From Chloroflexota bacterium (GTDB lineage: Bacteria > Chloroflexota > Limnocylindria > Limnocylindrales > CSP1-4): 32,701 bases of DNA. Position numbers and translations under genes: made by a program. The DNA is taken from positions 1 to 32,701 of the forward strand of contig PMYK01000054.1 in the NCBI GenBank assembly GCA_003171255.1, given 5' to 3'. A model generated the notes under the pieces. The model made no database searches, was not told the origin of the DNA, and saw only the letters and a program-made list of their open reading frames with translations. This document shows, piece by piece, positions 17,019-19,674 of the stretch (the stretch's first letter is position 1; each line of letters starts with the position of its first letter).

Positions 17019-17429
17019 GTGCCTGACGATTTCATCTTTCCCGAGGGGATCAACGCGGAGTCGCTGAAGAAGCTCTTCGAAGAGGCCTACATGGAGGTCT
17101 CGGTCGACACGGACGGCGATCTCATCGTCAAGGACAACTACCGCTGCTATCTGCGGCCCGACCAGGACGGCCGGCTGATCTCGATATACGCGATCTTCGG
17201 CAGCGCCGCCGAGGCTGCGCAGGCCGACAAGCTGGCCTATATCAACCGCGTCAACGACCAGGTGAAGATGATCCGCGCCTCGGTCTCGGCCAACGGGAAG
17301 TTCTTCTTCGACTACTACTTCTCGGTCGAGGGCGGCGTCTCGAAGCGCGCCGTCGTGATGTCGGTGCGACGGTTCTTCTCCTGCCTCGGCTCGGCCCTGC
17401 GCGAGGACACCGGCAACGTAGTGGCATAG
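17019..17429 (+). CDS. YbjN domain-containing protein
   Basis: 136 residues from GTG 17019, 5 nt after a full AAGGAGG. It fits the YbjN family, which has a fold like type III secretion chaperones: INAESLKKLFEEAYMEVSVD, then alternating strands DGDLIVKDNYRCYLRPDQDG and SIYAIFGSAAEA, a helix KLAYINRVNDQVKMIRASV, and strands KFFFDYYFSVEGGVSKRAVV. Members are small cytoplasmic proteins linked to stress responses, with no known enzymatic activity. It has no signal peptide. It lies downstream of rel but has its own -10 element and long leader. A strong hairpin follows the stop. Confidence 0.82.
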   Translation: MPDDFIFPEGINAESLKKLFEEAYMEVSVDTDGDLIVKDNYRCYLRPDQDGRLISIYAIFGSAAEAAQADKLAYINRVNDQVKMIRASVSANGKFFFDYYFSVEGGVSKRAVVMSVRRFFSCLGSALREDTGNVVA

Positions 17430-17496: not shown

Positions 17497-19020
17497 TCAA
17501 TGCTTGGATGCGGCCCAGACCGACACCGTCGGGATCACGTTCGGATAGCTGTCCGGCCCTGAGCCGGCGGGATAGGCGGCGATGAAGGCGAGCACTCGAG
17601 TGGGCGTTTCCACGATGGCGAGGGGATAGCCCTCGGGGCCAGCGATGATTCGCTGCCAGTAAGTACCTTCTTCCGACCAGTAGGTATGGGGTGCCTCCGA
17701 CGGAAGGTAGGGGAAGGTAGGCTCGGCATTCCCGCTCGACTCGGCCCCGCTTATGGCCCACAGGCCGCTGGCACCTTGTTGAGAGATGACCGAGTAGTAG
17801 GTTCCGTAGTCCGAGAAGGCGTTCTCCAGCCGGGTTGGATAGGACCGCTGCTGGATGGTCCAGTTCAATCCGTCGGCAGACAAGGCCTCGTAGTAGCCGG
17901 AGTCACTTGGCATCGTGCCGGTGCCACTGAAGTCCATGTGCGTCGCCATCGAAACAACCCATTTGCCGTCGAAGAAGGCCGGGTTGCCGCTGGCCTGGAG
18001 TCGATCGCCCAGGGCGGCTGTCGCGCCGCCGGCCGGATAGCTCGTGGTCCAGGTCTCGCCGTCGGGAGAGTGGGCGGCGCACAGCTGATTGCTCGAGCCT
18101 GTGGTCCCTGCGCAGGTGCCCACCGCCAGGTAGCCATCGGGCCCGGCAGCGAGGGTCGCGCTCGACATCGCCAGGGATCCGGCCGACAGCCTCGCGGGCT
18201 GCCAGGTCACTCCGTCGGTAGAGGTCATTAGGACGTTGGCCCCAGCCGCCGGAGTCCCCGTGGAGGTCGCGCCTCTGACGAAGCCGTGGCGAGTCGCGAG
18301 GAGGTCGGTCGGCGGAGCCGAGTAGATGTACTGGACGTCAGCCCCGACATAGTTGGGCAACCGCTGCGAAGGCTGTTCGGTCCAGGTCGTCCCGTCGCTC
18401 GACGTCCACGTCACCGACGTCGCCGGCGAGAGCGCGGGGCTGCCCCCCTGGTTCGGAACCAGACCGGTCGCGACCCAGGCGCCGTTTGAGACCGCAACCT
18501 CCAGGTTGGTGGCGCAGCTGTCGGTAGAGCAGATGTCCGCCGGCTTCGGCAGGTTCGCGCACGTCCAGTCTGTCCCATCCTTCGATTGAAGGACGCAGGA
18601 CTGGAAGAGATCGAAATTGTCGTGGCCGCTGGCCACCCCCACGATCTCGTCGTTCTGCCACGACAGCCACACCGTCTCGAACTGGTCGTACGGGCTGCCC
18701 GAGAACGTGTGTATCTGCTGCCACTGCCCGAGCGTGACAGGTGGAGTGGGCGACGGATTCGGCTTGTTCTGAGTGGCGACGGCATAGATCAGGCCGCCCG
18801 TCAGAGTGAGCGTTGCGGCGAGACCGAGGAGCATCAACCCTCGGACGCTGCGCTTCGATGCCCTTCGTTCGGCCGGCATTCGCTGGACGCGGAGCGGGGT
18901 CATGACGACATTCCCGGCCTCGAGCCGGGCCAGCTTGTCGAGGATTGCCGGCGGCAGATCCGGGTTGGCGCTGGCGGCGGCAAGAGCCTCGAGCCTGCGC
19001 TCCACATCATTGCTGTTCAT
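17497..19020 (-). CDS. Single-pass membrane protein with SxDGxxW repeats; candidate anti-sigma/sensor
   Basis: 507 residues, starting at an ATGA that overlaps the sigma-factor stop, so the two are co-translated. Residues 1-58 are charged and helical (DVERRLEALAAASANPDLPP), then one membrane helix at about 60-82 (GLMLLGLAATLTLTGGLIYA), then a Pro-rich linker and about 410 extracytoplasmic residues. That part carries six S-x-D/E-G-x-x-W motifs (SKDGTDW, SSDGTTW, STDGVTW, SPDGETW, SADGLNW, SEEGTYW), the pattern of sialidase-like/BNR Asp boxes and indicative of a beta-propeller. Paired Cys (QSCVLQ, TCANL, DICSTDSCA) may form disulfides. Position, topology and coupling suggest the N-terminal part holds the ECF sigma factor and the propeller senses something outside. 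No zinc HxxxCxxC anti-sigma motif is seen, so the function is inferred. Confidence 0.8.
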   Translation of the reverse strand: MNSNDVERRLEALAAASANPDLPPAILDKLARLEAGNVVMTPLRVQRMPAERRASKRSVRGLMLLGLAATLTLTGGLIYAVATQNKPNPSPTPPVTLGQWQQIHTFSGSPYDQFETVWLSWQNDEIVGVASGHDNFDLFQSCVLQSKDGTDWTCANLPKPADICSTDSCATNLEVAVSNGAWVATGLVPNQGGSPALSPATSVTWTSSDGTTWTEQPSQRLPNYVGADVQYIYSAPPTDLLATRHGFVRGATSTGTPAAGANVLMTSTDGVTWQPARLSAGSLAMSSATLAAGPDGYLAVGTCAGTTGSSNQLCAAHSPDGETWTTSYPAGGATAALGDRLQASGNPAFFDGKWVVSMATHMDFSGTGTMPSDSGYYEALSADGLNWTIQQRSYPTRLENAFSDYGTYYSVISQQGASGLWAISGAESSGNAEPTFPYLPSEAPHTYWSEEGTYWQRIIAGPEGYPLAIVETPTRVLAFIAAYPAGSGPDSYPNVIPTVSVWAASKH

Positions 19021-19556
19021 CGCGGGTCCTCCCCGTCGCGCTCCAGGGCTCGCCTGAGCGTTTCGAGTGCGTAGTGCTGGCGTGACTTGGCAGTCCCCTC
19101 CGGGATGCCCAGCCGCTCGCCGATCTCGGGCATCGATAGCCGGCCCCAGAAGCGCAGGACGATGACGATTCGCTGATCGTCAGTCAGCTCGGACAGCGCA
19201 CGACCCACTGCGTCGCGCAAAAGCGAGTCTCGGAACGCGTCGCCGGAGTCGGCGAGGTCCAGGTCCTCGTTGAGGTCGCGCACCGAGGCCCGGCGTCGCG
19301 CCGCCAGTCGGGTCTTGCAAACGTTGATCAGGATCCGGCCGAACCAGGCCTTCACCGCGTCAGGATTGCGCAGCTTCGGCCAGCCGTTCCAAGCCCGTTC
19401 GAGCGCTTCCTGCACGGCGTCTTGCGCTTCTACCGCGTCGCCCAGGATGTAGCCCGCGAGTCGGTATGCCGCTGCCAGCTCCCCCTCGATCTCTGTCGAG
19501 AAGCTGGCAGCGGTCGAAACGGTCGCCGGTTTGGGGGCCAGTTGTGCCTCCACCAT
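19017..19556 (-). CDS. ECF-type RNA polymerase sigma factor
   Basis: 179 residues from ATG at 19556, which follows AAGGGG with 6-nt spacing. A TTG at 19601 would add 15 residues and is the alternative. Region 2: AYRLAGYILGDAVEAQDAVQEALERAWNGW and AVKAWFGRILINVCKTRLAARRR, with the DA.Q.A helix and the basic aromatic -10 recognition part. Region 4: ALSELTDDQRIVIVLRFWGRLSMPEIGERLGIPEGTAKSRQHYALETL, a helix-turn-helix for the -35 element. Only regions 2 and 4 are present, as in ECF factors. The stop overlaps the next start (ATGA). The divergent region to hisS contains two inverted repeats. I could not find a convincing GGAAC-type self-promoter. Confidence 0.93.
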   Translation of the reverse strand: MVEAQLAPKPATVSTAASFSTEIEGELAAAYRLAGYILGDAVEAQDAVQEALERAWNGWPKLRNPDAVKAWFGRILINVCKTRLAARRRASVRDLNEDLDLADSGDAFRDSLLRDAVGRALSELTDDQRIVIVLRFWGRLSMPEIGERLGIPEGTAKSRQHYALETLRRALERDGEDPR

Positions 19557-19590: not shown

Positions 19591-19601
19591 TCGCAAGACA
19601 A

Positions 19602-19617
19602 GACCTGGAGTCAGGTC
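19602..19617. promoter_or_regulatory. Perfect 6-4-6 inverted repeat between sigma gene and hisS
   Basis: GACCTG, spacer GAGT, CAGGTC. It is located about 46 bp upstream of the sigma ATG and 58 bp upstream of the hisS -10 element, so it could control the sigma promoter. Confidence 0.35.
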
Positions 19618-19674
19618 GAATCGTTCATCCGCCCACCGCGAGCCGCCGAGGGGCGAGAAGGCCACTCGACTCGC

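Follow-up and report, generated by a model that had tools for sequence, protein, structure and literature searches.

Pairs of a sigma factor and an anti-sigma factor are one main route by which bacteria sense what lies outside the cell, and the locus described here raises the question whether a membrane protein with a large, repeat-bearing outer part, encoded directly behind an ECF sigma factor, is a receptor of this kind. The locus lies in a window of 32,701 nucleotides, the whole stretch of DNA that was analyzed, which forms the start of contig C19 in a Chloroflexota genome of 2.56 Mb and 55 contigs. A sequence-only reading of the window had proposed a two-gene unit on the minus strand with an ATGA overlap, and its coordinates, strand and overlap are all correct (Table 1).

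Table 1. Features of the P0002/P0001 locus; positions are those of the window.
Feature	Position	Strand	Basis
Promoter of ECF type, TGAACG-N17-GTCTTGTCT	19596..19627	-	-35 TGAAC 19623-19627, -10 GTCT 19601-19604
P0002, ECF sigma factor, 179 aa; sigma2 ~28-89, sigma4 ~115-168	19017..19556	-	Pfam/NCBIfam matches
ATGA overlap, P0002 stop / P0001 start	19017..19020	-	sequence
P0001, 507 aa, membrane anti-sigma candidate	17497..19020	-	reading frame, orthologues, N-terminal profile
P0001 residues 1-58, putative anti-sigma domain, short and without zinc motif (LExxLR ... PxxP ... L)	18847..19020	-	N-terminal profiles
P0001 residues 61-82, single membrane helix after basic stretch, LAA in first third	18775..18840	-	hydropathy
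P0001 residues 99-507, Asp-box propeller-type outer domain	17500..18726	-	profile matches, motifs
s-Asp-box 1, SKDGTDW (residue 146)	18565..18585	-	motif
s-Asp-box 2, SSDGTTW (residue 207)	18382..18402	-	motif
s-Asp-box 3, STDGVTW (residue 267)	18202..18222	-	motif
s-Asp-box 4, SPDGETW (residue 318)	18049..18069	-	motif
s-Asp-box 5, SADGLNW (residue 381)	17860..17880	-	motif
s-Asp-box 6, degenerate, SEEGTYW (residue 449)	17656..17676	-	motif

The Locus and Its Orthologues

P0002 is an ECF sigma factor composed of sigma2 and sigma4 only: Pfam gave Sigma70_r2 (E 1.2e-12) and Sigma70_r4 (E 2.3e-15) and no other sigma region, and the protein passes the NCBIfam cut-off for TIGR02937 (sigma70-ECF), while its 104.2 bits against TIGR02983 (SigE family) fall below the cut-off of 141.55. 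P0001 by itself gave nothing above cut-off in Pfam or NCBIfam and matched no PDB sequence. Membrane anti-sigma factors are known to be encoded in this way, by a gene that overlaps the end of an ECF gene and whose product crosses the membrane once behind a short, basic N-terminus. The sequence-only reading had described P0001 as having a cytoplasmic part of about 58 residues, a single membrane helix and six outer motifs, all of which was borne out except that the sixth motif carries E in place of D; it had also noted that the classical zinc anti-sigma motif is absent, and residues 1-58 indeed contain no Cys and no His.

A search across the 107 genomes of the family, the window genome included, identified full-length relatives of P0001 in three further genomes, all of the same genus as the window genome (G039 at 92% identity, G050 and G053 at 39% each by BLASTP), and only partial matches in 12 other genomes at E <= 0.001. 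An ECF partner is present beside each orthologue, 88, 79 and 68% identical to P0002 in G039, G050 and G053, respectively, and relA, the ECF/P0001 pair and hisS occur together in all four orthologue loci. In the window, G039 and G050 a convergent YbjN-like gene separates relA/spoT from P0001 (window positions 17019-17429 on the plus strand, Pfam E 1.5e-6); it was not found in the G053 locus stretch.

The Outer Domain and the Membrane Helix

The six [ST]x[DE]GxxW motifs of P0001 are spaced 51-68 residues apart, and 20,000 shuffles of residues 84-507 produced a mean of 0.026 such motifs and a maximum of 2. In the literature the short s-Asp-box is given as S/T-x-D/N-x-x-x-W and the classical box as S-x-D-x-G-x-T-W (PMC2716378); by their sequence boxes 1 to 5 of P0001 are of the short and not the classical kind, and box 6, with its E, falls outside the short consensus. 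The 63 Asp-box proteins of the pair family described below contain 260 short boxes versus 175 classical ones. Within an alignment of 21 Asp-box members residues D209, W213, G270, D320, G321, W324, S381, D383, G384, W387 and W455 of P0001 are invariant, and a profile of these members found 37 PDB sequences at E <= 0.01. These include xyloglucan hydrolase (GH74), sialidases (some of them fusion constructs), sortilin and Ycf48, chains which we take to be propellers, together with one chain named "Cellulose-binding, family II" and two uncharacterised proteins; in Pfam some Asp-box relatives match BNR and Sortilin models. The reading of the outer part as a propeller rests on these profile matches, since the AlphaFold2 models of P0001 and of the outer part alone are both of low confidence (pLDDT 31.3 and 36.4).

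Sensing of xyloglucan by a GH74-like domain was considered, the best profile match being a xyloglucanase, and was set aside: that alignment rests on the Asp-box repeats, and a ligand is therefore not claimed. The outer part also holds six cysteines which are kept in all four orthologues and in none of the 17 other alignment rows at those columns, a pattern that would fit extracellular disulfides.

The hydrophobic stretch of P0001 starts at about residue 61-63. Across 108 N-termini of the family the 12 residues before the helix have a mean net charge of +2.6, which favours an N-inside orientation. Of 107 proteins, 90 have two adjacent alanines among the 14 positions that open the helix window, compared with a mean of 64 and a maximum of 76 in within-helix shuffles and with 133 of 373 other proteins of the loci in the same positions; the helices of the pair family are also richer in Ala than those of the other proteins. 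M50 proteases are encoded in the window genome, but their presence says little because all 14 control genomes also encode them.

A Family of Sigma Factor and Membrane Protein Pairs

Of the 107 family genomes, 53 contain close relatives of P0002 (E <= 1e-30), with up to 13 in a single genome. At E <= 1e-28, relatives occur in 58 of the 126 genomes searched in the order and in at least 14 of 301 genomes sampled across the phylum, where at most 11 candidates per genome were scored; 13 of these 14 genomes are of the same family and one is of the same class. For the analysis of pairs 100 regions were picked by hand, mostly by rank, from the ECF list of the family, and the loci of the window genome and of the orthologues were added. 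This yielded 111 ECF places with an open frame behind each, of which three were dropped, two with a downstream start judged to be mis-called (L165 and L127) and one without a membrane helix by our threshold (L138), leaving 108 pairs with seven from the window genome. One of the dropped proteins, L165, was later seen to have a matching N-terminus in the profile test. At 91 of the 111 places the sigma stop and the downstream start share 4 bases, a count to be read with the script's preference for such a start when in frame.

By simple rules the 108 outer parts were sorted into Asp-box (at least three boxes; n = 63), kelch (at least two motifs; n = 13), NfeD-like (at least five further hydrophobic stretches; n = 12), three-helix (three stretches; n = 7) and other (n = 13), counts which are not frequencies, as the picking passed over some high-ranking places and places with in-frame stops. 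A Pfam scan of 91 proteins without the NfeD-like ones gave 19 with matches to Sortilin/BNR_2 models and 15 to kelch models; among ten proteins, mostly of the class "other", individual ones matched PepSY, PD40, DUF4232 or DUF2826, and the remainder of the ten had no match above cut-off. The sole NfeD-like member scanned against Pfam, L032, matches the NfeD1b, NfeD membrane and NfeD models. It should be noted that the NfeD-like pairs (12/108; in the window genome L032 on contig C2 and L033 on C32) have an N-terminus of putative anti-sigma type and a helix, followed by several membrane stretches. A further ECF-linked membrane protein of the window genome, L043 (C32:116000-121500), has an outer part which by eye looks DsbA/thioredoxin-like.

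The Shared N-Terminal Segment

A profile built from the 63 Asp-box N-termini finds 44 of the 45 other members at E < 0.01 (NfeD-like 12/12, kelch 13/13, three-helix 7/7, other 12/13), a threshold at which it matches only 2 of 540 shuffled N-termini; at E < 1 it matches 114 of them. Searches in the opposite direction are weaker: the profile of 13 kelch N-termini finds 36/63 Asp-box, 12/13 other, 3/7 three-helix and 1/12 NfeD-like members, and that of the 12 NfeD-like N-termini finds 18/63 Asp-box members and 0/33 in the remaining classes. The consensus runs from LExxLR through PxxP and a Leu to basic residues, and at least 80% of the filled alignment rows agree at positions E7, L10, P23, R52 and R60 of P0001. 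In the AlphaFold2 model of P0001, which was made from an alignment with the 92% relative from L030 and is of the low confidence given above, helices are placed at residues 3-16 and 24-35, ahead of the membrane helix.

The sequence-only reading had named failure of the N-terminal segment to bind or co-occur with ECF factors in relatives as a ground for refutation; co-occurrence was found in both directions. For the converse test 21 genomes of the genus were searched with the N-terminal profile, and 20 matches away from listed ECF genes were taken by rank, after exclusion by eye of places beside family-listed ECFs and of two at contig ends. All 20 have an upstream ECF match on the same strand, which is strong in 19 cases (E 1.1e-32 or better, with match ends 2-95 bases apart) and weak in one (E 1.2e-6, 306 bases away). 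Among the N-termini of 70 other membrane proteins 21 match at E < 0.01, every one of them behind an ECF gene (three of these belong to our set but were translated from a later start, and another has a 25-residue stretch in common with a member), and a further 14 of the 70 score between E 0.01 and 1. The window genome also has seven ECF genes that are less related, and the N-termini encoded after these match weakly, with 3/7 at E < 0.01. The N-terminal segment is a module common to the family that goes with ECF genes.

The module has no counterpart among the anti-sigma families searched. The zinc anti-sigma (ZAS) motif HxxxCxxC is absent from all 108 N-termini, and in an HMM comparison of the kind suggested by the sequence-only reading none of 77 N-termini matched an anti-sigma family of Pfam with E of 1 or below. 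Searched against the PDB with a cut-off of E 10, a profile of these 77 rows gave seven matches, and no anti-sigma chain is among them. Mirror-tree correlation was considered as evidence of binding and dropped: among Asp-box members the sigma factor distances correlate with those of the N-terminus at r = 0.73, hardly above the r = 0.715 with the outer part, and across divergent pairs of all classes the correlation with the N-terminus is only 0.18.

Exchange of Outer Parts

When the 108 sigma factors are placed on a tree, the class of the outer part changes at least 18 times, compared with a possible minimum of 4 and a mean of 42.5 after shuffling, figures to be read with the quick kind of tree used, the simple class rules and the long branches of some rows. 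All 12 NfeD-like proteins fall with one clade of the sigma tree, the kelch class needs 6 changes of which 3 are forced by well-supported branches, and the Asp-box class needs 15 changes with 8 forced. This pattern suggests that the relatives keep an inner clamp and exchange the outer sensor, that is, a modular sensing of the outside. The principle described for RsgI, a common inner domain with exchangeable outer sensors, is found here at the level of predicted architecture.

A Conserved Promoter

The window contains a single site of the promoter form of Table 1. A perfect copy occurs once per genome in all four orthologue genomes, always before the P0002 orthologue, and the P0002/P0001 unit, having this conserved promoter, probably activates itself. 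The looser form GAAC-N16..18-[CG]GTC lies upstream of the ECF gene in 67 of the 108 pairs, with 0 on the reverse strand and a mean of 5.5 and maximum of 9 in shuffles; by class it is present in Asp-box 49/63, other 9/13, three-helix 7/7, kelch 2/13 and NfeD-like 0/12. When two mismatches were allowed 14 more sites were identified in G000, G039, G050 and G053 versus 2 in a backward control, and these are possible further targets of P0002.

Proposed Mechanism and Alternatives

From the gene structure, the co-occurring pair family, the conserved promoter and the repeat motifs we infer that P0001 is most likely a membrane anti-sigma factor which would sense the outside, bind and inhibit P0002, and be removed by regulated proteolysis. 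Residues 1-58, zinc-free and probably forming two helices, would tether P0002 at the membrane; the single helix would span the membrane and place outside an Asp-box-type beta-propeller, presumably closed, which would take an extracytoplasmic signal, possibly a ligand. The signal would then start a stepwise proteolysis, with a cut in the outer part, an RseP-type intramembrane cut and degradation of the N-terminal fragment by a Clp-type protease, and P0002 thus freed would transcribe its own operon. We give this explanation as a whole, from sigma factor and propeller sensor to proteolytic release and self-activation, a probability of about 0.78. The suggestion of the sequence-only reading, an anti-sigma type whose sensor could be a propeller, gains support from the co-occurrence in both directions and from the profile matches of the outer part.

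Co-occurrence and gene overlap cannot separate inhibition from activation, and P0001 could in principle be a co-expressed membrane partner, such as an activator, a chaperone or an output protein, with an N-terminus that merely docks to the ECF factor or to RNA polymerase. The enzyme-like character of some outer parts, such as L032 with its three NfeD models, and the lack of solved anti-sigma chains among the PDB matches of the N-terminus would fit such a role. We nevertheless consider it improbable, since one N-terminus is joined to very different outer parts, as expected for a regulator with exchangeable inputs, and since the layout is as in known membrane anti-sigma factors (PMC12203970). 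We see similarly little likelihood of an outer part built as a beta-domain of repeats that do not close into a propeller: the occurrence of six motifs 51-68 residues apart within one chain, the profile matches to GH74, sialidase, sortilin and Ycf48 and the BNR and Sortilin matches of relatives all speak against it, even though Asp-boxes are also found in non-propeller folds (PMC2716378), the AlphaFold2 models are of low confidence and P0001 alone has no domain match above cut-off. As to how an anti-sigma factor of this type would let go of P0002, a change in the inner segment on ligand binding could suffice, or release could be mediated by a partner protein, and the helices show no more than a moderate Ala-Ala signal; RsgI, the system with the best-matching layout, uses proteolysis (PMC12203970), and we regard release by other means as unlikely.

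Comparison with Known Systems

In the RsgI/SigI systems the sigma factor is bound by an inner domain and the signal is perceived by an outer one that varies, until RseP and ClpXP relieve the inhibition by proteolysis (PMC12203970). P0001 resembles RsgI of Clostridium thermocellum in its intracellular N-terminal domain, its one helix and in sensors that vary between paralogues of one genome (PMC12203970). It differs in that its partner is an ECF factor, in that the RsgI family is absent from the Pfam matches, and in that the sensors of the pair family are predicted propellers, NfeD-like proteins and others. With the ASDI anti-sigma factors (RseA, RsiW, RskA, ChrR) it shares a nearby ECF partner, a mostly membrane-bound state and an optional zinc motif (PMC7406223), but only about 58 residues precede the helix and no solved anti-sigma chain is among the seven PDB matches. 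A 2020 survey describes the domains that accompany ASDIs as typically well conserved within a group, unlike the outer domains here, which vary inside one ECF clade (PMC7406223). The N-terminus of P0001 is short and zinc-free, as is the two-helix ASDII domain of CnrY (PMC7406223). ASDII domains wrap the sigma factor with their two helices, and ASDI domains form a three-helix bundle to which a fourth helix is added; the model of P0001, of low confidence at pLDDT 31, puts two helices before the membrane helix. However, the PDB search with the N-terminal profile gave no sequence match to CnrY-like domains. The outer part of CnrY is not known to be related to that of P0001.

The repeated Asp-box-type motif and the profile matches liken the outer part to the Asp-box beta-propellers of sialidases, GH74, sortilin and Ycf48. 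Short Asp-boxes are reported to occur usually in 1-2 copies in the five-bladed GH32/GH43 propellers, whereas P0001 has five short boxes and a degenerate one (PMC2716378). Propeller-type repeats linked to an ECF factor are also found in ECF57 with its WD40-like C-terminal extensions, which unlike those of P0001 are fused to the sigma factor itself and not carried by a separate membrane protein (PMC8999054). Among the matches listed in a search of the open PMC literature there was no study of anti-sigma factors that bear a propeller of the Asp-box or kelch type. A 2026 paper on related Chloroflexota, whose CSP1-4 is inferred to be the family of the window, gives sigma factor counts, and the words "anti-sigma" and "ECF" are absent from the accessible part of its text (PMC13212565).

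A wider reading, which we put forward tentatively and at somewhat less than an even chance, is that the N-terminal segment represents a separate and so far unnamed class of anti-sigma domain, from which one Chloroflexota family may have built a large modular receptor system. Such a system would consist of one ECF clade and one short clamp, present in several copies per genome, with sensors exchanged many times (short-Asp-box propellers, kelch propellers, NfeD-type membrane proteases and others) and with many pairs activating themselves through a common promoter form. Our confidence was lowered slightly because ASDIs are reported to adjoin 72% of Chloroflexi ECFs, and the looser ASDI model of that survey may already count N-termini like that of P0001 (PMC7406223). 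If the reading is true, a constant clamp with a changing receptor would show how such receptors evolve, and with the promoter known each pair could serve as a testable sensor. It would also be a first functional lead for propeller proteins in uncultured members of the Chloroflexota which alone, as in the case of P0001, match no annotated family. Within the clade several ECF copies carry an in-frame stop inside the match (G042:C128, G044:C47, G051:C36, G051:C46 and G051:C3), as if copies were gained and lost.
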